Shown here one piece after another: positions 40,769 through 49,770 of a DNA stretch of 64,000 bases. The stretch covers positions 1 to 64,000 of the forward strand of contig JAUPTV010000149.1 of the NCBI GenBank assembly GCA_030917925.1, written 5' to 3'. Source of the stretch: Pseudomonadota bacterium (GTDB lineage: Bacteria; Pseudomonadota; Gammaproteobacteria; Competibacterales; Competibacteraceae). Numbering within the stretch: position 1 is the stretch's first letter; each line of letters begins with the position of its first letter. The notes below the pieces were generated by a model. That model did not search any database. It was not told the origin of the DNA and was given only the letters and a program-made list of their open reading frames with translations. The translations under genes and the position numbers were made by a program.

Positions 40769-41803
40769 ATGGCCCGTTCTGGAATCCGTTATGAAGATGT
40801 CAAGGATGCTGCCGAAACCCTGCTCAGTCGCGGCCTCTCCCCCACCATCCAGCGCGTGCGCGAAGTGCTCGGCACCGGCAGCAACACCACGATCAGCGAA
40901 CATCTCAAGCATTGGCAGCAACGCCTGGCGGAAACGCCATTAGCCATCCTCCCGCCTGCAGTTCCCGAAGTCGTGATGGCCGCGCTCGATGCCTTCTGGA
41001 AGACTGCCGTGCAACAGGCAGAAACTGCCTTTGATGAACAGCGTGCAATAGCCCGGCAAACCGTTACGGCGGCTGAAGCGATTCGCGACCAGGCCATCGC
41101 CGAAGCCCGGCAGGCCCATGCCGAGGCCGCTGAAGTACGTCATGAGTGTGAAATGATGCAAACCACCACCCGTGAACTCGCTGACCGCCTGCTCGTGGAA
41201 CAGGAACGCCGCACACTTGCGGAGGCCGCGATTACGGCAGCAGAACAACGGGTCCAGGCGGCGCTGGCGACGGTCATCCAGATTCGCGCCGAGACGGAGG
41301 CCCGGGTCATGCAACTGGATACCGCCCTGCAACAACTGCGCATGGATATGGAGCAGCAACGACAGGAGGCGCAAGCGCGATTTACTGCGGAACGCCAGCG
41401 TGGCGAGGCCAATGAAGCCCGGTTAATGCAACAAATGGATCGGACTCGCCAGGAACAGCTTGCTGAACGGCAAACCTTCGCGGCTGAACGGCAGGACTGG
41501 AAAAATCGGGAAAATGTGGCACAGGAGCAGCGGGAGGCTCTGCGCCAGGAGAACGTCAAATTACAGACCACTTTGGCGGCAGTGGAGGGACACCGGAATG
41601 CTTTAATCAGTGAAATCGAACAGTTACGGACCACAATTCAGCAGGTGGAAATCCGTCATCTGGACGCGGTGCGCGATGCCGAAGTCCTGCGTGGTGAACT
41701 GAAAGCGGCGCTCGTAGAGCGGGAGCGATTGCAGCGTGAGCAGGTGCTTCACGAAACGGCCCTGCCCGCTCAGACGCCAACAACAAAATCGGATGACCAG
41801 TAA
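40769..41803 (+). CDS. KfrA-like DNA-binding coiled-coil protein
   Basis: 344 residues. The N-terminal KfrA_N-type DNA-binding domain is SGIRYEDVKDAAETLLSRGL followed by SPTIQRVREVLGTGSNTTIS and EHLKHWQQ. Residues ~95-335 are a long Glu/Gln/Arg/Ala-rich coiled coil. KfrA is a plasmid protein that binds its own promoter and helps partition or nucleoid-like organisation. The ATG at 40769 has AGGAG seven bases upstream; an earlier in-frame ATG at 40700 precedes the promoter and is unlikely. It stands directly before the CRISPR operon, so a role at the paired palindromes upstream of cas3 is worth considering. Confidence 0.85.
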   Translation: MARSGIRYEDVKDAAETLLSRGLSPTIQRVREVLGTGSNTTISEHLKHWQQRLAETPLAILPPAVPEVVMAALDAFWKTAVQQAETAFDEQRAIARQTVTAAEAIRDQAIAEARQAHAEAAEVRHECEMMQTTTRELADRLLVEQERRTLAEAAITAAEQRVQAALATVIQIRAETEARVMQLDTALQQLRMDMEQQRQEAQARFTAERQRGEANEARLMQQMDRTRQEQLAERQTFAAERQDWKNRENVAQEQREALRQENVKLQTTLAAVEGHRNALISEIEQLRTTIQQVEIRHLDAVRDAEVLRGELKAALVERERLQREQVLHETALPAQTPTTKSDDQ

Positions 41804-41944: not shown

Positions 41945-41990
41945 GTTTCAAATTGAAACGTGTGAAATATTTTATGTTTCAATTTGAAAC
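41945..41990. promoter_or_regulatory. Paired 15-bp palindromic operators upstream of cas3
   Basis: GTTTCAAATTGAAAC (41945-41959) and GTTTCAATTTGAAAC (41976-41990) are perfect palindromes apart from the central base. Their centres are 31 bp apart, about three helical turns, so two dimers would sit on the same face. TTGAAA in the second site, with TATTGT at 42006-42011 16 bp later, could be the -35 and -10 of the cas promoter, making this a repressor site. The regulator is not known; the adjacent KfrA-like protein is one candidate. Confidence 0.65.
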
Positions 41991-42069
41991 ATTAATCCCA
42001 GAAACTATTGTAAGGTATTGATTTAATAATCGTCATTTTTCGGCATAAAATTCGCTTTATCTGAAAGCT

Positions 42070-45000
42070 ATGCTCCACAGCCGCGCTGGCGGAACGTTTC
42101 ACCATGCCGGCATCGCAAACTTTGCCCACACCGATGCACTGGATTTCATGATCGATACCTTGGATGAAAACGACTGGCACACCGCTGAAGATATTCGCCT
42201 CCTGACCCGCCTCGCGGCCTTATTCCATGGCTTTGGTAAGGCTAATGACGCTTTTCAAAAGAAATTGGCCAGCAAAAAACCGGTAGCCGATGCCTACCGG
42301 CATGAATGGGTCTCCCTACGGTTGTTTGAAGCCTTTGTCGGACAAAGTACCGATCAAGAATGGCTGACTCGGCTGACGGGCTTACCCGATGACGTCAGCG
42401 CGGCTTGTCTCGACCAACTCCAGCGGATCTGCGATGGAGTGGGAAATCGGCGTATTGATAGCCCCTTCAAAAAATTGCCGCCTCTAGCGCAAGTCGTGGG
42501 TTGGCTGATGGTCAGTCATCATCGCCTGCCCACGCCGACGCAGGATATCGTCCTGAACAAGCGGCTCTTAGAGAAACTGCTGGAACAGATCGACCATCGC
42601 TGGTGTGGTAGTCGACCCGAAGAAGCCAGTGCTCCCGCGTGTTGGCAATTCAAGAATGGTCTACCCCTGGACAGCCAACACTGGCGTCAGCACACGGCCA
42701 AGGTGGCAAAGGCAATCTTGCAACGCTCGCGTCTGGTCGGCGAGGGAGAAGCGGTCAAGCTGCTGGAGAGTCCATTTATCCTGCATCTTTCGCGCATGGC
42801 CTTGATGCTGGCCGATCATTACTACTCGGCGCAAGACAGTCATGCGCGATATGGCGACAAACCGGGCAAAAAAGGCACGGTACTCTACGCCAATACCGGA
42901 ATTCAGAACGGCAAGCGTGAACTCAAACAGCGTCTGGACGAGCATTTAATCGGCGTGGAAGCCAGCGCTAGCCGGATCGTCAGGACCTTGCCACGTTTGG
43001 CCACTGCACTACCGCGTATCGCCCGACATAAGGGATTTCGTGAGCGTAGCAAAGGGTTGTTTCGCTGGCAGAATCAGGCCTTCGATCTCGCCGAAAGCCT
43101 ACGAGAGCGAGCGCTCCACCAAGGCTTCTTCGGCGTTAACCTGGCGTCTACCGGTTGTGGCAAGACGTTAGCCAATGGGCGCATTCTCTATGCCCTGGCG
43201 AATCCACAATTAGGGGCACGATTCACAGTGGCGCTGGGCTTGCGGACCCTCACGCTGCAAACCGGCGACGCCTATCGCCAGCGTTTGCATCTCGGCCCGG
43301 AAGATTTGGCGGTACTGGTCGGCGGCGTCGCCACACGCGCCCTGCATGACTACGCGCTCAGCCAACAGGAACAGGCGCAGGTGGATAACGGGTCCGAGTC
43401 CAGCGCGGCGCTATTGCCTGATCACAATCATGTGCATTACGAGGGTAGCCTGGAAAGCGGGCCGTTGAAGGAATGGTTGGGTCAGAGTGATGCCTTGCGC
43501 CTGCTCGATGCGCCGGTACTGGTCTGCACCATTGACCATCTGATGCCGGCGACCGAGGGCGTCCGGGGCGGACACCAGATTGCGCCCATGCTGCGGTTGA
43601 TGACCGCCGATTTGGTTCTGGATGAGCCGGATGACTTTGGCATTGAAGACTTGCCCGCGCTGACCCGATTGGTGCATTGGGCCGGTTTGCTCGGTAGTCG
43701 CGTTTTGCTGTCATCGGCTACCTTGCCGCCCGCGCTGGTGCAAGGCTTGTTTTTGGCGTATCGAGCCGGGCGGGTGGAATATCAACGCAACCGGGGCCGT
43801 CCAGACGCCCGTTCAGCGGTGTGCTGCGCCTGGTTCGATGAATTTGCCGTACAGGCTGACGATTACGATGAGGGGGTGCCCTACTTGGCCGCCCACCGCC
43901 AGTTTGTTGAGCAGCGCCTGACGCGACTGGCCAAAGCGGAAGTCCGCCGCCGGGCGCTGATCGTTGAGGTGCCCGTCACCGCTCAACAGTCGCGGGAAGT
44001 CATTTGTACCGAGTTGGCCGGGCCGTTGCGCCAACACCTGCATACCTTGCATCGCCAGCACCACAGCACCGATCCCCAAACGAGCCAACGGGTCAGCTTC
44101 GGCCTGATTCGTATGGCGAACATCGATCCATTGTTCGATGTGGCGCGGGAACTCTTTCGACAGGGCGCGGAAGTGGGCGGCCACATCCATCTGTGCGTCT
44201 ACCACTCGCGTCATCCGCTGCTGGTGCGGGCGGCGATTGAACGCACCCTGGATGCCGCCCTTCAGCGCAGCAAGCCCGATGATGTGTTCAAGCTCGAAGG
44301 TGTGCGCCAAGCGATCCATACCTCACCGGAGCAAGACCACATCTTTGTCGTGCTGGCCACCGCCGTCGCCGAAGTGGGGCGCGATCACGACTATGACTGG
44401 GCGATGGTTGAACCGTCATCCATGCGCTCAATCATTCAACTGGCCGGTCGCGTTCGCCGGCATCGGGCCGGAATGTGCGCAGTCGATCAACCGAATCTGT
44501 ACCTGCTGGATACCAACGTGGTTCATCTCGTTCAAGGAGGCAGCAAGCCGGCCTTTTTGCGTCCCGGTTTCGAGAGCAATAGCTTTCCACTCGCCAGCCA
44601 CCGTTTGACGGAAATTCTCACCCCTGAACAGTGGCAAGTGATCAACGCGGCGGCTCGAATCAAGGAACGCGATCCATTGATGCCGCAAAGCAATCTAGTT
44701 GATTTGGAACACGCCCGCCTGAAAGACCTGATGCTCGGTGCTAATGCCGGTGAAGTGCAAGTAGACGACCCGGTTCATCGGTGGTGGACCACCGGCGCTC
44801 ACCTGAGCGGCCACCTTCAGCGGCGTAAACCCTTTCGGGATGATCCCCTGGGACGGTCGCAGTACGCTCTGCTGCCGAATGACGATGAAGCCATCAATTT
44901 CTATCACCTGCCAGACGGTGATGAACCGCGACTCATGGGTCATCTTTGGCGGGAAATGCAGGACAGCGATGTACCGAACGGGCCACGCATCAGTGCATGG

Positions 45001-45159
45001 GCGGTACCTTGCTATCTGGAGGCGTTGCAAGCGTTGGCCGAGAACCAACAGATGGAATTGCGGGATTGCGCGTTGAAGTATGGAACGCTGGATTTGCCCG
45101 GCAAGAAGCCTGAACAGAGGTGGCGCTATCACTATGCGCTGGGGTTTAGCCGATATTGA
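42070..45159 (+). CDS. cas3: Type I-F Cas3 without Cas2 domain and with HD motif changed to HG
   Basis: 1029 residues. I-F Cas3 normally carries an N-terminal Cas2 domain of about 90 residues; here the protein begins close to the HD domain (WHTAEDIRLLTRLAALFHGF) and an in-frame stop at 42046 rules out extension. The nuclease HD motif is His53-Gly54 (codons CAT GGC), whereas the Asp is a metal ligand in active enzymes; other expected ligands remain (YRHEWVSLRL, MVSHHRLP, LADHYYS). Helicase motifs are intact: LASTGCGKTLANGRI (Walker A), LVLDEPDDFG (DEAD-like), LLSSATLPPALV and IQLAGRVRRHRAG. It should unwind DNA but may not cut it. Its TGA stop (45157-45159) lies inside a CRISPR repeat. Confidence 0.93.
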   Translation: MLHSRAGGTFHHAGIANFAHTDALDFMIDTLDENDWHTAEDIRLLTRLAALFHGFGKANDAFQKKLASKKPVADAYRHEWVSLRLFEAFVGQSTDQEWLTRLTGLPDDVSAACLDQLQRICDGVGNRRIDSPFKKLPPLAQVVGWLMVSHHRLPTPTQDIVLNKRLLEKLLEQIDHRWCGSRPEEASAPACWQFKNGLPLDSQHWRQHTAKVAKAILQRSRLVGEGEAVKLLESPFILHLSRMALMLADHYYSAQDSHARYGDKPGKKGTVLYANTGIQNGKRELKQRLDEHLIGVEASASRIVRTLPRLATALPRIARHKGFRERSKGLFRWQNQAFDLAESLRERALHQGFFGVNLASTGCGKTLANGRILYALANPQLGARFTVALGLRTLTLQTGDAYRQRLHLGPEDLAVLVGGVATRALHDYALSQQEQAQVDNGSESSAALLPDHNHVHYEGSLESGPLKEWLGQSDALRLLDAPVLVCTIDHLMPATEGVRGGHQIAPMLRLMTADLVLDEPDDFGIEDLPALTRLVHWAGLLGSRVLLSSATLPPALVQGLFLAYRAGRVEYQRNRGRPDARSAVCCAWFDEFAVQADDYDEGVPYLAAHRQFVEQRLTRLAKAEVRRRALIVEVPVTAQQSREVICTELAGPLRQHLHTLHRQHHSTDPQTSQRVSFGLIRMANIDPLFDVARELFRQGAEVGGHIHLCVYHSRHPLLVRAAIERTLDAALQRSKPDDVFKLEGVRQAIHTSPEQDHIFVVLATAVAEVGRDHDYDWAMVEPSSMRSIIQLAGRVRRHRAGMCAVDQPNLYLLDTNVVHLVQGGSKPAFLRPGFESNSFPLASHRLTEILTPEQWQVINAAARIKERDPLMPQSNLVDLEHARLKDLMLGANAGEVQVDDPVHRWWTTGAHLSGHLQRRKPFRDDPLGRSQYALLPNDDEAINFYHLPDGDEPRLMGHLWREMQDSDVPNGPRISAWAVPCYLEALQALAENQQMELRDCALKYGTLDLPGKKPEQRWRYHYALGFSRY

Positions 45160-45242
45160 CTGCCGCATAGGCAGCTTAGAAATTGAGTTTATCCAGCTTC
45201 GGTTGGAGACGTTCGATTACTGCCGAATAGGCAGCTCAGAAA
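45155..45242 (+). CRISPR. One-spacer mini-array between cas3 and csy1
   Basis: Two 28-nt repeats (45155-45182 and 45215-45242) frame one 32-nt spacer (45183-45214). The period is exactly 60, as in the main array. Repeat 1 matches main-array repeat 1 at 25 of 28 positions and repeat 2 matches the TTTACTG type at 24 of 28. Both keep the Cas6f stem CTGCC/GGCAG, and repeat 1 keeps the full CTTAGAAA 5' handle. Repeat 1 contains the cas3 stop codon; repeat 2 ends 6 bases before the AAGGAG of csy1. Cas6f should cut here, splitting the operon mRNA and releasing one crRNA. Confidence 0.9.
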
Positions 45243-45261: not shown

Positions 45262-46569
45262 GTGGTCTCATCAGAAATTTCCATACAGGATGTTGCTGCC
45301 CACATCCGAAGTGCTATCGCCGCATTTCTGCAAGACCGCCTCAAACCGAAGCTGGACAAAATCAAAGAGGACGATCACGCCACACGGCAAAAGCTGCTGG
45401 ACGCGCATGAGCCGCAGACCTGGATTGCCAATGCGGCGCACCGGGTTAGTCACATTCAGCAAGTGACTCACGCACTAAAATTCAGCCATCCCGACGCCAA
45501 AGGTTCCAATCTAACCAGTTTAGGTAATCCACACGCGGGTGAACTCACCGTGGGTTCCCATGCTTTGGCGAATACGTTGCCACCCGACATAGTGGGCAAT
45601 GCGGCGGACCTCGATGTGTACAAGTTTTTGCGCCTTGAAGTGAATGGTCAATCCCTGCTGGATCGGGCCATCGCCCAAGACCCTGCACTGGTTGCGGCTC
45701 TTTCTGATAATGCTGACTTGGCTCGCCAGTGGATGGCGGCTTTTGCGACGCTGCCCGAACCCAACGGCAAGCTGTCTACCCACAAATTAGCCAAACAGGT
45801 TTATTGGCCGCTGGGTGACGGGCGCTATCACCTGTTGGCTCCGCTGTTTCCGACCGCTTTGACGCATAGAGTTTGGGAGCGCATCCGCGAGGATCGTTTT
45901 TCCGATGAAGCCAAAGCGGCACGGGAAGCCAAACGGGAGCATCGCGCTCACCCCCACGGCTATCGCGAATATCCGAATCTGGCAATCCAGAAGTTTGGGG
46001 GCACCAACCGGCAAAATATTAGCCAGCTTAATGTCGAACGTTATGGCGAAAACTGGCTGTTGCCCTCGCTCCCGCCGACTTGGCAGTCCGATTCGATACG
46101 TCCGCCATTTTTCACCGATAGCGTATTGAGTCGCCGTTTCGGCAGCCGTCCTGAAGTCAGACGCCTCACGCAAACCTTGCGCGAGTTTCTGAAAAAAGTG
46201 GCGAAGATTGATAGCAATATCCGGATTCGCGACAAACGGGCGGAACGGGTGGGTGATCTTCGCGATGAGTTACTCCAGTTTGCCGCTGAACTGCATGAAC
46301 TCGATGCCGGTTGGACGCAGAGCGAAAAATGCCGTCTCAACGCGGCGGAACAATGCTGGCTGGATCCCAAACGCGCTGAGATTGACGAGGAGTTTGCCAC
46401 GCGCTGGCAACGTGGCGACTGGCAAGATGAGGTCTGTTTGCGTTTTGGCAACTGGCTCAATGCGGCGATCAGCAGTGAACAAACGCCGATGGGGCAAGTG
46501 GAGTCCGAAGCGTGGCAAACCGTATTGGACGACGAGTTGCGGATGATTCGCCTGGAGCTGGCTCCATGA
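45262..46569 (+). CDS. csy1: Type I-F Cascade subunit Csy1 (Cas8f)
   Basis: 435-residue large subunit of the I-F surveillance complex, which with Csy2 holds the crRNA 5' end and reads the PAM. Family landmarks: LDKIKEDDHATRQKLLDAHE, IANAAHRVSHIQQVTHALKF, HPDAKGSNLTSLGNPHAGEL, YPNLAIQKFGGTNRQNISQL and ENWLLPSLPPTW. The GTG at 45262 has AAGGAG (45249-45254) seven bases upstream. The end overlaps csy2 by ATGA. Codons 25-35 are complementary to the mini-array spacer just upstream. Confidence 0.95.
   Translation: MVSSEISIQDVAAHIRSAIAAFLQDRLKPKLDKIKEDDHATRQKLLDAHEPQTWIANAAHRVSHIQQVTHALKFSHPDAKGSNLTSLGNPHAGELTVGSHALANTLPPDIVGNAADLDVYKFLRLEVNGQSLLDRAIAQDPALVAALSDNADLARQWMAAFATLPEPNGKLSTHKLAKQVYWPLGDGRYHLLAPLFPTALTHRVWERIREDRFSDEAKAAREAKREHRAHPHGYREYPNLAIQKFGGTNRQNISQLNVERYGENWLLPSLPPTWQSDSIRPPFFTDSVLSRRFGSRPEVRRLTQTLREFLKKVAKIDSNIRIRDKRAERVGDLRDELLQFAAELHELDAGWTQSEKCRLNAAEQCWLDPKRAEIDEEFATRWQRGDWQDEVCLRFGNWLNAAISSEQTPMGQVESEAWQTVLDDELRMIRLELAP
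45334..45365 (+). other. csy1 segment complementary to the mini-array spacer
   Basis: The reverse complement of spacer 45183-45214 aligns without gaps to this stretch at 27 of 32 positions, including 13 consecutive matches (45344-45356). Mismatches are at spacer positions 5, 9, 23, 27 and 30, corresponding to 45361, 45357, 45343, 45339 and 45336. On the protospacer strand the two bases 5' of position 1 are CT, not the usual I-F CC PAM. In the mRNA the spacer and this stretch could pair, with the csy1 ribosome site and start codon in the loop between them. Confidence 0.88.
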
Positions 46570-47564
46570 CGCACCGATTGATCGACGCCGGGGGTCTGCT
46601 GATCCTGCCACGCTTGCAGGTGCAAAATGCTAACGCCATTTCTGGCCCGCTGACCTGGGGGTTTCCATCGCCGACCGCCTTTACCGGCTTTGCCCATGCC
46701 CTGGAGCGCCGCTTGCGTGACGCGGCAGGCGACTTGAAACAAGGGTTTGGCGGAGTCGGTATCATCTGCCACCGCTTTGAACCCCAGGTTTCCCAGCCTG
46801 CCGGGCGGCGCACTCAGGTTTTCTGCCTGACGCGCAATCCGGTCGGCAAGGATGGGGGTTCAACGGCTCTGGTAGAAGAAGGCCGCGCTCATCTGGAAAT
46901 CAGCTTAGTTATCGCTGTGCAGGATGGATTTAGTGAAGCTGACGGCAACGACTGGGCAAAGATCGCTCACCATACGGCCCAAGGAATGCGTTTGGCGGGC
47001 GGCAGCCTCCTGCCCGCTCGGAACGGTGAACGCTATGAGGCCCGGTGGCAAGTCTTGCCTGATTCCCTTAATTTGCAACAGGAATTATTCAAAAAGATGC
47101 GCCGGCGCTGGTTGCCGGGTTTTGCCCTGGTGCAACGGGAAGACCTGCTGGCGGAACGCTTGGCCGAACTCCGTGTTGCTCAACCTGATGCGACCGCTCT
47201 CGATGCCTTGCTCGACCTGTCCCGGCTCAATATCGAACCCACAGTCCTTAATCCAGACCCGCCGGAAGCGGTGACTTGGCAAGTGCGTAAGCGTCCGGGC
47301 TGGATCGTGCCGTTGCCGGTCGGTTATGCCGGAATCTCGCCTCTCTATGAGGCCCGCGACGTTGAAAACACGCGTGATGGCCTCACGCCCTTCCGTTTTG
47401 TGGAATGCCTGTATTCCGTGGGCCAATGGATCAGTCCCCATCGGTTGGACGATCTCCACGCACTGTTCTGGCATACCGAAGCGGACCTTGAAAAGGGCAT
47501 TTACCGTTGTATCAACCTCTATTCCGAAACCCTCCCCTCTATCGCCCCTGGTAATATCGCATAA
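46566..47564 (+). CDS. csy2: Type I-F Cascade subunit Csy2 (Cas5f)
   Basis: 332 residues. The opening LIDAGGLLILPRLQVQNANA and SGPLTWGFPSPTAFTGFAHA is typical of Csy2, which pairs with Csy1 at the crRNA 5' handle. Later landmarks are PAGRRTQVFCLTRNP, LRLAGGSLLP-type segment RLAGGSLLPARNG and the C-terminal CLYSVGQWISPHRL. The ATG overlaps the csy1 stop as ATGA, so translation is coupled; a longer frame from 46512 would run into csy1 and is not needed. Confidence 0.94.
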   Translation: MTHRLIDAGGLLILPRLQVQNANAISGPLTWGFPSPTAFTGFAHALERRLRDAAGDLKQGFGGVGIICHRFEPQVSQPAGRRTQVFCLTRNPVGKDGGSTALVEEGRAHLEISLVIAVQDGFSEADGNDWAKIAHHTAQGMRLAGGSLLPARNGERYEARWQVLPDSLNLQQELFKKMRRRWLPGFALVQREDLLAERLAELRVAQPDATALDALLDLSRLNIEPTVLNPDPPEAVTWQVRKRPGWIVPLPVGYAGISPLYEARDVENTRDGLTPFRFVECLYSVGQWISPHRLDDLHALFWHTEADLEKGIYRCINLYSETLPSIAPGNIA

Positions 47565-47576
47565 GGAAGTAATGAC

Positions 47577-48623
47577 GTGGCTAAAACTGACCTGAAAACG
47601 GCCTCTGTATTGGCCTTTGAACGCAAACTGGACCCCTCAGATGCGCTGTTTAGCGCCGGGCGTTGGAACGAACGAGGGAATGGCGACCGCTGGCCGACTT
47701 TGGGGGTGCGGGAAAAATCGGTGCGGGGCACCATCTCCAACCGACTGGCTGATAAAGATCAGAACAACGCTGCCAAACTGGATGCTTCGATTCAGTCGCC
47801 CAACCTGCAAACGGTGGATGTGGCCACGCTGCCCAATGATGCGGATACCTTGCGTGTCCGTTTCACGCTGCGCGTCCTGGGTGGGGCCGGTACCCCGTCG
47901 GCCTGCAATAATGCCGACTATCAGCAAAAATTACAGAGTACCGTCAAGCAGTATGTGGACCAGACAGGCTTTGCCGAACCGGCCCGCCGTTACGCCTTCA
48001 ACTTGGCCAATGGCCGATCACTGTGGCGCAATCGCATCGGTGCAGAACAAATTGAAGTACAGGTCCGCTATTTGAAGCAGGGCGAAACCGCTCAGGTCTG
48101 GACCTTCAACGCGCATGACTTTTCCCTGCGGGATTTTGTAGAAAAACCGGCTCACGCCCAAGCCCATCTACCCGCGCTGGCGGCGGTGATTGAACAAGGT
48201 TTGGCGGGTAAGGACTATGTGCTGCTGGAAGTGGTAGCTTATGCGCGGGTCGGTGATGGGCAGGGAGTCTATCCCTCACAAGAGCTGATTCTCGATAAGG
48301 GCGACAAGAAGGGCCAGAAGAGCAAGACCCTTTACACGGTGGGCGACATCGCAGCGATTCACAGCCAGAAGATTGGCAATGCCTTGCGAACGATTGATAC
48401 TTGGTACCCTCACGAGGAAGGCACGGACATCGGCCCGATTGCCGTGGAGCCTTATGGATCGGTCACTTCGCAAGGCAAGGCGTATCGCCAACCCAAAGAC
48501 AAAGTGGATTTCTATAGCCTGCTCGACAATTGGGTGCTGAAAGACAAAGCGCCGGATATCGGCGGTCAGCATTATGTAATGGCTACGTTGATCCGGGGTG
48601 GCGTCTTTGGTGAGAAGGATTGA
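47577..48623 (+). CDS. csy3: Type I-F Cascade backbone subunit Csy3 (Cas7f)
   Basis: 348 residues. Cas7f forms the six-subunit backbone along the spacer. Landmarks: [20 protein letters not shown], the [11 protein letters not shown] segment, [20 protein letters not shown] and [23 protein letters not shown] start with AAGGAAG seven bases upstream. It sits 12 bases after csy2 and 3 bases before cas6f. Length matches the family, with no sign of damage. Confidence 0.95.
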
Positions 48624-48626
48624 TGA

Positions 48627-49190
48627 ATGGATGCTTACCTTGAAATCAGGCTGCGATCTGATCCCGAGTTCATGTCCACCACATTGATGAATGCTCTGTT
48701 TAGCAAGCTGCACCGTGGACTCGTCGCGCATGGCGGGCAAAATATTGGCGTGAGCTTTCCCGATGTGGGGAAAAATAGCCGGTCTCTGGGTGAGCGCCTG
48801 CGTCTCCACGGCAGCAAAGCGGACTTGGAACAGTTGATGGCTTTGAACTGGATGGTGGGGATGCAAGATCACGCAATGGTGAGTGCGATTATGGAGATTC
48901 CCGCCCACACCAAATCAAGGGTGGTTCGGCGCGTTCAGGCTAAAAGCAACCCCGAACGACAACGGCGTCGGTTGATCAGCCGTAAGGGCATCAGCCCGGA
49001 GCAGGCGATACAGGCGATCCCGGACGATGCAGCGGAAATGTTGAAGCTACCTTACTTGGTTTTGGCCAGCCAAAGTACCGGCCAGCAATTTCGCCTGTTC
49101 GTCGAGCATTTGGTCGTTCAGGAACGAGCTGTCATTGGACGGTTTAGCACATACGGTCTGAGTCCAACGGCGACGGTTCCCTGGTTCTAA
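48627..49190 (+). CDS. cas6f: CRISPR RNA endonuclease Cas6f (Csy4)
   Basis: 187 residues. It cuts pre-crRNA at the base of the repeat stem and stays bound to the 3' hairpin. The catalytic His29 is present (SKLHRGL), as are the arginine-rich RNA-binding helix VQAKSNPERQRRRLISRKGI, the LASQSTGQQFRLFVEH strand with the catalytic Ser region and the C-terminal STYGLSP...VPWF. All appear intact, so the main array and the mini-array inside the operon should both be processed. ATG directly follows the csy3 stop. Confidence 0.95.
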   Translation: MDAYLEIRLRSDPEFMSTTLMNALFSKLHRGLVAHGGQNIGVSFPDVGKNSRSLGERLRLHGSKADLEQLMALNWMVGMQDHAMVSAIMEIPAHTKSRVVRRVQAKSNPERQRRRLISRKGISPEQAIQAIPDDAAEMLKLPYLVLASQSTGQQFRLFVEHLVVQERAVIGRFSTYGLSPTATVPWF

Positions 49191-49321: not shown

Positions 49322-49769
49322 CTTCACTGCCGGATAGGCAGCTTAGAAAAAGTCGATTGCCTGGGACTACCTCAAGCATTTCTTTACTGCCGGATAGGCA
49401 GCTTAGAAAACGCGATGAATGAGCGGACAGCCGTCACTCATCTTTACTGCCGGATAGGCAGCTTAGAAAAACAGGGCGAAACGTGGTGGGATATTCCCGA
49501 CCTTTACTGCCGGATAGGCAGCTTAGAAAGCAATCGCGGCGTTCAATGGACTATTGCCATGCTTCACTGCCGGACAGGCAGCTTAGAAATCCATCAGGCG
49601 CAGGGCGCTTAGGATGTACCACTTCACTGCCGGACAGGCAGCTTATAAAGTAGTGATTGCCACTATTTGATACTCCGTTTTCTTCACTGCCGGACAGGCA
49701 GCTTAGAAAGCCCTGGTTGCAGAGATTCAGCGGCAGGAACACTTCACTGCCGGACAGGCAGCTTAGAAA
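49322..49769 (+). CRISPR. Type I-F CRISPR array, 8 repeats and 7 spacers
   Basis: Repeats of 28 nt start at 49322 and every 60 bases to 49742; spacers are all 32 nt. Every repeat keeps the CTGCC/GGCAG stem. Repeats 2-4 begin CTTTACTG and have GGATAGG in the loop side; repeats 5-8 begin CTTCACTG with GGACAGG; repeat 1 mixes the two. Repeat 6 has GCTTATAAA instead of GCTTAGAAA, which alters that handle. Orientation matches cas genes, with the leader side next to cas6f. No cas1 or cas2 is present to add spacers. Confidence 0.97.
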
Positions 49770-49770
49770 T

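Follow-up and report, generated by a model that had tools for sequence, protein, structure and literature searches.

A putative sigma54 enhancer in front of a type I-F CRISPR-Cas operon and other anti-phage systems of the Competibacteraceae

Paired enhancers of the NtrC type are a well-known feature of sigma54 promoters, glnA being one example, and a bend by IHF or by other means between enhancer and promoter is common, albeit not obligatory. The general enhancer-promoter layout proposed here is covered by a review of the sigma54 mechanism (PMC7057263), and the element that we describe, found upstream of cas3f, resembles such enhancers in possessing palindromes paired on the same helix face some 100-150 bp upstream, with IHF between and a -24/-12 promoter. 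It differs from them in its palindrome, GTTTCANNNTGAAAC, and in its targets, which are defence and envelope operons and not nitrogen genes.

As to the control of immunity, one example is the KinB/AlgB pair of Pseudomonas aeruginosa, a histidine kinase and an NtrC-family response regulator that affect I-F immunity and tie it to surface polysaccharide, phospho-AlgB lowering CRISPR activity indirectly, via AlgU/AlgR/AmrZ (PMC10013973). A kinase and an NtrC-family response regulator are likewise proposed here for I-F control, but through a direct sigma54 enhancer before cas3, predicted to be activating. Another example is Gac/Rsm, which coordinates many defence systems in Pseudomonas (PMC11888443), while Rsm controls CRISPR in Serratia (PMC8450108). 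The likeness lies in one pathway serving unlinked defence systems; however, Gac/Rsm acts post-transcriptionally, through RsmA, and involves no shared DNA enhancer or sigma54 promoter. A third is the AprX/RpoN3-XrpA system of Cereibacter, in which a sigma54 activator drives the gene of an XRE-family regulator and the two co-occur (PMC11999139), a co-occurrence also seen here, whereas its target is flagellar, and neither a kinase/response-regulator pair nor a defence regulon is described there (PMC11999139). The transcriptional coordination of many unlinked anti-phage systems is largely an open question (PMC11888443), and no report of a sigma54 enhancer common to CRISPR, BREX, and DISARM was found in the non-subscription literature searched. 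Sigma54 enhancers as such are familiar; that one should serve as a portable switch common to many defence systems appears to be new.

Paired palindromes and a sigma54-type promoter upstream of cas3f

The window (the whole 64,000-nucleotide stretch analyzed) contains, in front of the I-F operon, a distal site, UAS1 (GTTTCAAATTGAAAC, 41945-41959), which is a perfect copy of GTTTCANNNTGAAAC aligned with 32 other elements, and a proximal site, UAS2 (GTTTCAATTTGAAAC, 41976-41990), neither being assigned a strand. As GTTTCAATTTGAAAC is the reverse complement of GTTTCAAATTGAAAC, these are the same site on opposite strands. They lie 31 bp apart, start to start, upstream of cas3f, and two perfect copies so near each other are far above chance expectation. 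A first-pass annotation had reported identical palindromes three helical turns apart before cas3, and both 15-mers are exactly as it placed them. It had missed an extra half-site, GTGAAAT (41962-41968, plus strand), about one helical turn past the right half of UAS1, as well as the IHF match and the sigma54-type promoter described below. The half-site, CGTGAAAC, is strongly kept between the palindromes in the class of elements with 32-bp spacing (e.g., L016, L018, L021, L023, L024, and L092) and partly kept in the 31-bp class. The element is a composite: a palindrome, a half-site TGAAAC one helical turn on, and a second palindrome.

Sigma54-type promoters were sought as TGGCAYR-N4-WTGCW with GG-N10-GC spacing, at a threshold of at least 10 bits. 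In the window, the predicted promoter CGGCATAAAATTCGCT (42041-42056, plus strand; 10.5 bits; -24 GG at 42042-42043 and -12 GC at 42054-42055) begins 50 bp past UAS2, with a box off consensus (CGGCAT...TTCGCT), and a match to the IHF consensus WATCAANNNNTTR with 0 mismatches, AATCAATACCTTA (42011-42023, minus strand), lies between the two. The predicted start is only ~3 nt before the annotated ATG of cas3f at 42070, and translation may begin instead at a later in-frame ATG, 42148. From UAS1 through -12, the cas3f promoter can be aligned, column for column, with those of DISARM and DrmD_b in the same genome, TTTGGCATGGGATTCGCT. This alignment took four other same-genome promoters (DISARM drmD/drmMI, the DrmD_b-type helicase, and two with no matching gene beside them), and it reveals that palindromes, IHF match, and -24/-12 element alike are conserved.

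Across the elements, a sigma54-type promoter of at least 10 bits is found downstream of 27 of 33, versus 7.4% of random positions (Fisher p=5e-25), on counts that are not fully independent since homologous copies occur among the elements; such a sequence is found in 4.4% of the ORF-upstream windows of the same loci and on the opposite strand of none of the 33 elements. The spacing within the pairs is 31 bp in 23, 32 bp in eight, 30 bp in one, and 33 bp in one (n=33), and in further genomes the best partner site lies 20-22 or 30-31 bp away, with one exception, pointing to helical phasing. Of 30 UAS-promoter intervals, five contain perfect IHF matches (p=1.5e-4; expectation 0.33), though four of these, that of the window included, are homologous promoters; most other intervals possess no perfect match, and matches with at most one mismatch number 13 in the 30 intervals, versus 4.4 expected.

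A dispersed motif and the genes behind it

A whole-genome count of GTTTCANNNTGAAAC, two mismatches being allowed, gives 40 occurrences versus five for the reversed control, and the paired pattern gives 10 versus none. The window pair is one of about 13 elements in its own genome, and the exact GTTTCAAWTTGAAAC is found at three other loci, each with a second, slightly weaker copy 31-32 bp off. Eleven of 39 Competibacteraceae genomes possess the strict pair, and all 365 gammaproteobacterial genomes from outside the family lack it; reversed controls are zero throughout both sets. The assignment of the family to the Competibacteraceae follows named relatives of the response regulator described below, Ca. 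Contendobacter among them. Elsewhere in the family, I-F cas3 loci mostly do not carry the element, so it is the regulon that is conserved and not the link to cas3. The site proposed earlier as dedicated to the I-F operon thus belongs to a dispersed regulon. By the test that the first-pass annotation itself had set, the lack of the palindromes before most related cas3 genes formally counts against its reading, while the site is kept upstream of other defence genes. In one genome (G024, locus L130), a degenerate pair, GTTTTATATTGAAAC and GTTCCAAAATGGAAC, 31 bp apart with ATGAAAC in the middle, lies ~40 bp before cas1, too near the gene for the usual promoter placement.

Six of the 13 element targets (first genes or operons) in the own genome match PADLOC models at E<=1e-30, versus at most four of 67 other proteins (p=8.5e-4). 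The targets include the I-F cas3f of the window, DISARM drmD with drmMI (L017), a DrmD_b-like helicase (L021), BREX-3 brxF-brxC (L024), a truncated BPTD_3080 restriction gene followed by a MkoC-like helicase-nuclease (L016), and a probably truncated GmrSD_N protein (L018), the remaining ones being TRAP dctP, a GGDEF/EAL protein, an Lcl_C secreted protein, an XRE gene, a small membrane ORF, and two remnants. In other genera, the elements precede DISARM (L092, G019), Bunzi BnzA/BnzB with a LeoA-like dynamin (L091, G024; its sigma54 score is weak, yet the promoter aligns with the others), a type I-E cas3 (L270, G029; sigma54 score 18.3), a DruE-like helicase (L274, G024), and an HNH nuclease (L255), along with many envelope and signalling genes (NlpC/P60, C92 amidases, a TPS adhesin, an MCP, an undecaprenyl sugar transferase, and PspA). 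Many of the targets, such as the TPS adhesin, C92 amidase, MCP, sugar transferase, PspA, and dctP genes, fall outside defence. As a separate observation, the genes at L024 161-3493, which adjoin the BREX-3 element on its upstream side, resemble CRISPR proteins of the Cmr1/Csx/Cas6 type, judged by their translations.

A second class of cassette places the same UAS-promoter stretch before BPTD_3080 restriction, BREX-3, DISARM, Bunzi, and the DruE-like gene, and ~130 bp of enhancer-promoter DNA is homologous before restriction (L016), BREX-3 (L024), Bunzi (L091), and DISARM (L092), in three genomes. Judged by its sequence, this stretch is a portable promoter cassette set before unrelated defence systems. 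The presence of the same switch before unrelated anti-phage systems (I-F, I-E, DISARM, BREX, Bunzi, and Druantia-like) suggests that they may be activated jointly by one signal. We lean, by a little, toward a sigma54 'immune regulon,' in which an envelope-sensing CHASE2 kinase and an NtrC-type regulator would act on a portable enhancer-IHF-promoter cassette reused before newly acquired systems, the unlinked systems in question being CRISPR I-F and I-E, DISARM, BREX-3, Bunzi, and DruE-like. A shared, recognizable enhancer leads to testable predictions, of which systems are co-induced and by which regulator, and it suggests a domestication of foreign defence systems through placement behind a resident promoter cassette.

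The candidate activator and competing readings

The palindromes are probably paired upstream activating sequences for a sigma54 activator (bEBP), most likely the NtrC-type response regulator encoded on C35, which would arm the defence systems. The site pairs and their spacing, the sigma54-type promoters, the IHF matches, the target genes, and the conservation beside the response-regulator gene are seen directly, and it is from this anatomy and conservation that we infer the identity of the binder, activation instead of repression, and the signal. The own genome encodes 16 strong bEBPs. The candidate (G000:C35; L027:5042-6427, minus strand) is a 461-aa protein of receiver-AAA+-HTH architecture that contains GAFTGA, an ortholog of it possessing the receiver PF00072, Sigma54_activat PF00158, and HTH_8 PF02954; the gene for a CHASE2 membrane histidine kinase is just upstream, and an element directly follows the response-regulator gene. 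An ortholog is present in 26 of 39 family genomes, and in 17 of these 26 the stop codon of its gene is overlapped or closely followed by a site of no more than one mismatch, the stop-codon site GTTTCAAAATGAAAC encoding V-S-K-stop. A sigma54 promoter is generally next, often followed by an XRE gene, and in G011 this promoter precedes a Pycsar-cyclase-like gene, with BREX-3 brxF-brxC 2 kb further. The conserved site beside its gene is the main reason for naming this response regulator as the activator. Its presence correlates weakly with site number over all genomes (p=0.03), and at p=0.001 once three fragmented assemblies and G019 are left out, an exclusion picked after the data were seen. No ortholog was detected in G001, G002, G003, and G019, all of which possess pairs (three of these assemblies are fragmented, that of G019 is not), and no convincing paired sites were found close to the remote relatives that the response regulator has beyond the family. 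Assignment to the PEP-CTERM regulator PrsR (TIGR02915) was rejected, the score of 348.5 bits being under the curated cut-off of 502.6.

On the favoured reading, a signal would lead the CHASE2 kinase to phosphorylate the NtrC-type response regulator, whose dimers would bind the paired sites three helical turns apart, then oligomerize and, across a linker bent by IHF, contact RNA polymerase-sigma54 on the -24/-12 element (42041-42056), and ATP-driven opening of this complex would lead to transcription of cas3f-csy1-csy2-csy3-csy4. The site would be a member of a Competibacteraceae regulon including other anti-phage systems and envelope genes, and, with a CHASE2 kinase in control, several defence systems would be armed at once by a signal from the periplasm or envelope.

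The first-pass annotation had instead proposed a cooperative repressor site, the second palindrome overlapping a -35 box, with the nearby KfrA-like protein as the nearest candidate regulator. A cooperative-looking pair of transcription factor sites on one helix face before the I-F operon is indeed present, while the repressor part is not supported, as the pairs sit at a distance upstream of sigma54 -24/-12 promoters, not over a core promoter, which is the layout of an activator enhancer. The -35 match exists and overlaps UAS2 (TTGAAA 41984-41989, 16-bp spacer, TATTGT), but it is weak (9/12), and with no good -35/-10 overlap an operator over a sigma70 promoter lacks support. The KfrA-like gene (KfrA_N, 88 bits) ends at 41803, 141 bp before UAS1, and among the loci inspected a KfrA gene adjoins the element in the window only, so this protein was dropped as the regulator. 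An XRE protein encoded next to the response regulator is the other candidate for such a repressor: 15-bp palindromes fit XRE dimers, in several genera an XRE gene is found past the element that adjoins the response-regulator gene, and its presence correlates with site number about as well as that of the response regulator. However, G011 possesses no XRE ortholog, yet carries a degenerate pair and a strong sigma54 box after its response-regulator gene, while G007, G023, and G031 possess XRE orthologs and no perfect site. An XRE protein is thus disfavoured as the binder, and a repressor operator of either origin is quite unlikely.

CARF regulators are linked to defence, and the enhancer may be real with its activator being another of the 16 bEBPs, such as the CARF-domain RtcR-type protein encoded on C73 (L052), a CARF_AAA_HTH match of 675 bits in PADLOC. 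The four genomes in which pairs occur while the favoured response regulator has no detected ortholog are consistent with another bEBP. The L052 ortholog, however, is present in only five of 39 genomes, is absent from the site-rich G025 and G029, and occurs in G008 and G020, which have zero and one site; its distribution across the 39 genomes fails to track site number, and the site is kept beside the gene of the favoured response regulator. L052 was rejected on this distribution, and we consider another bEBP unlikely. Of separate note, L052 (G000:C73:39694-41283) is a CARF-domain activator of the RtcR/PspF2 type, whose orthologs in G020, G006, and G035 contain an in-frame TGA. As to a dispersed REP/MITE-like repeat or a centromere-like (parS) element with no promoter function, the element is dispersed and palindromic, and the half-site GTTTCA resembles that of parS, whose ParB-bound core is the 16-bp TGTTTCACGTGAAACA with a CG centre. 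The sites here are 15 bp long with a variable N3 centre, on which ParB parS was rejected, and with the one-sided sigma54 promoters, helical spacing, IHF sites, and conservation confined to functional blocks this reading is highly improbable.

The I-F operon and its arrays

The operon downstream of the element starts with cas3f (42070-45159; TIGR02562, 1045 bits over model positions 100-1109; also matched as Cas23f/Cas3f) and continues with csy1 (cas8f, 45262-46569; TIGR02564, 391 bits), csy2 (cas5f, 46566-47564; TIGR02565, 294 bits), csy3 (cas7f, 47577-48623; TIGR02566, 426 bits), and csy4 (cas6f, 48627-49190; TIGR02563, 181 bits), followed by a CRISPR array (49323-49770) of eight repeats with a 60-bp period, all on the plus strand. 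The Cas2 domain (model positions 1-99) is missing from Cas3f, and there is no cas1 ahead of its gene, so that the system looks interference-only.

A one-spacer mini-array of two I-F repeats, also with a 60-bp period, lies between cas3f and csy1 (45155-45242). Its 36-nt spacer agrees at 27 of 36 bases with the start region of csy1 (45330-45365, minus strand), which is reminiscent of the Cas-regulating crRNAs (CreR), and it has no match in the cas3 promoter; the dinucleotide flanking the csy1 match is CT, versus the CC PAM. Likewise, in a relative (L135, G032), a short array (1478-1625) is found just before cas3, and one of its spacers translates as RILDQFAERR, in agreement with the N-terminus conserved among the Cas2-Cas3 proteins of family members. 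Together, the two arrays suggest that these I-F loci may carry self-directed mini-arrays.
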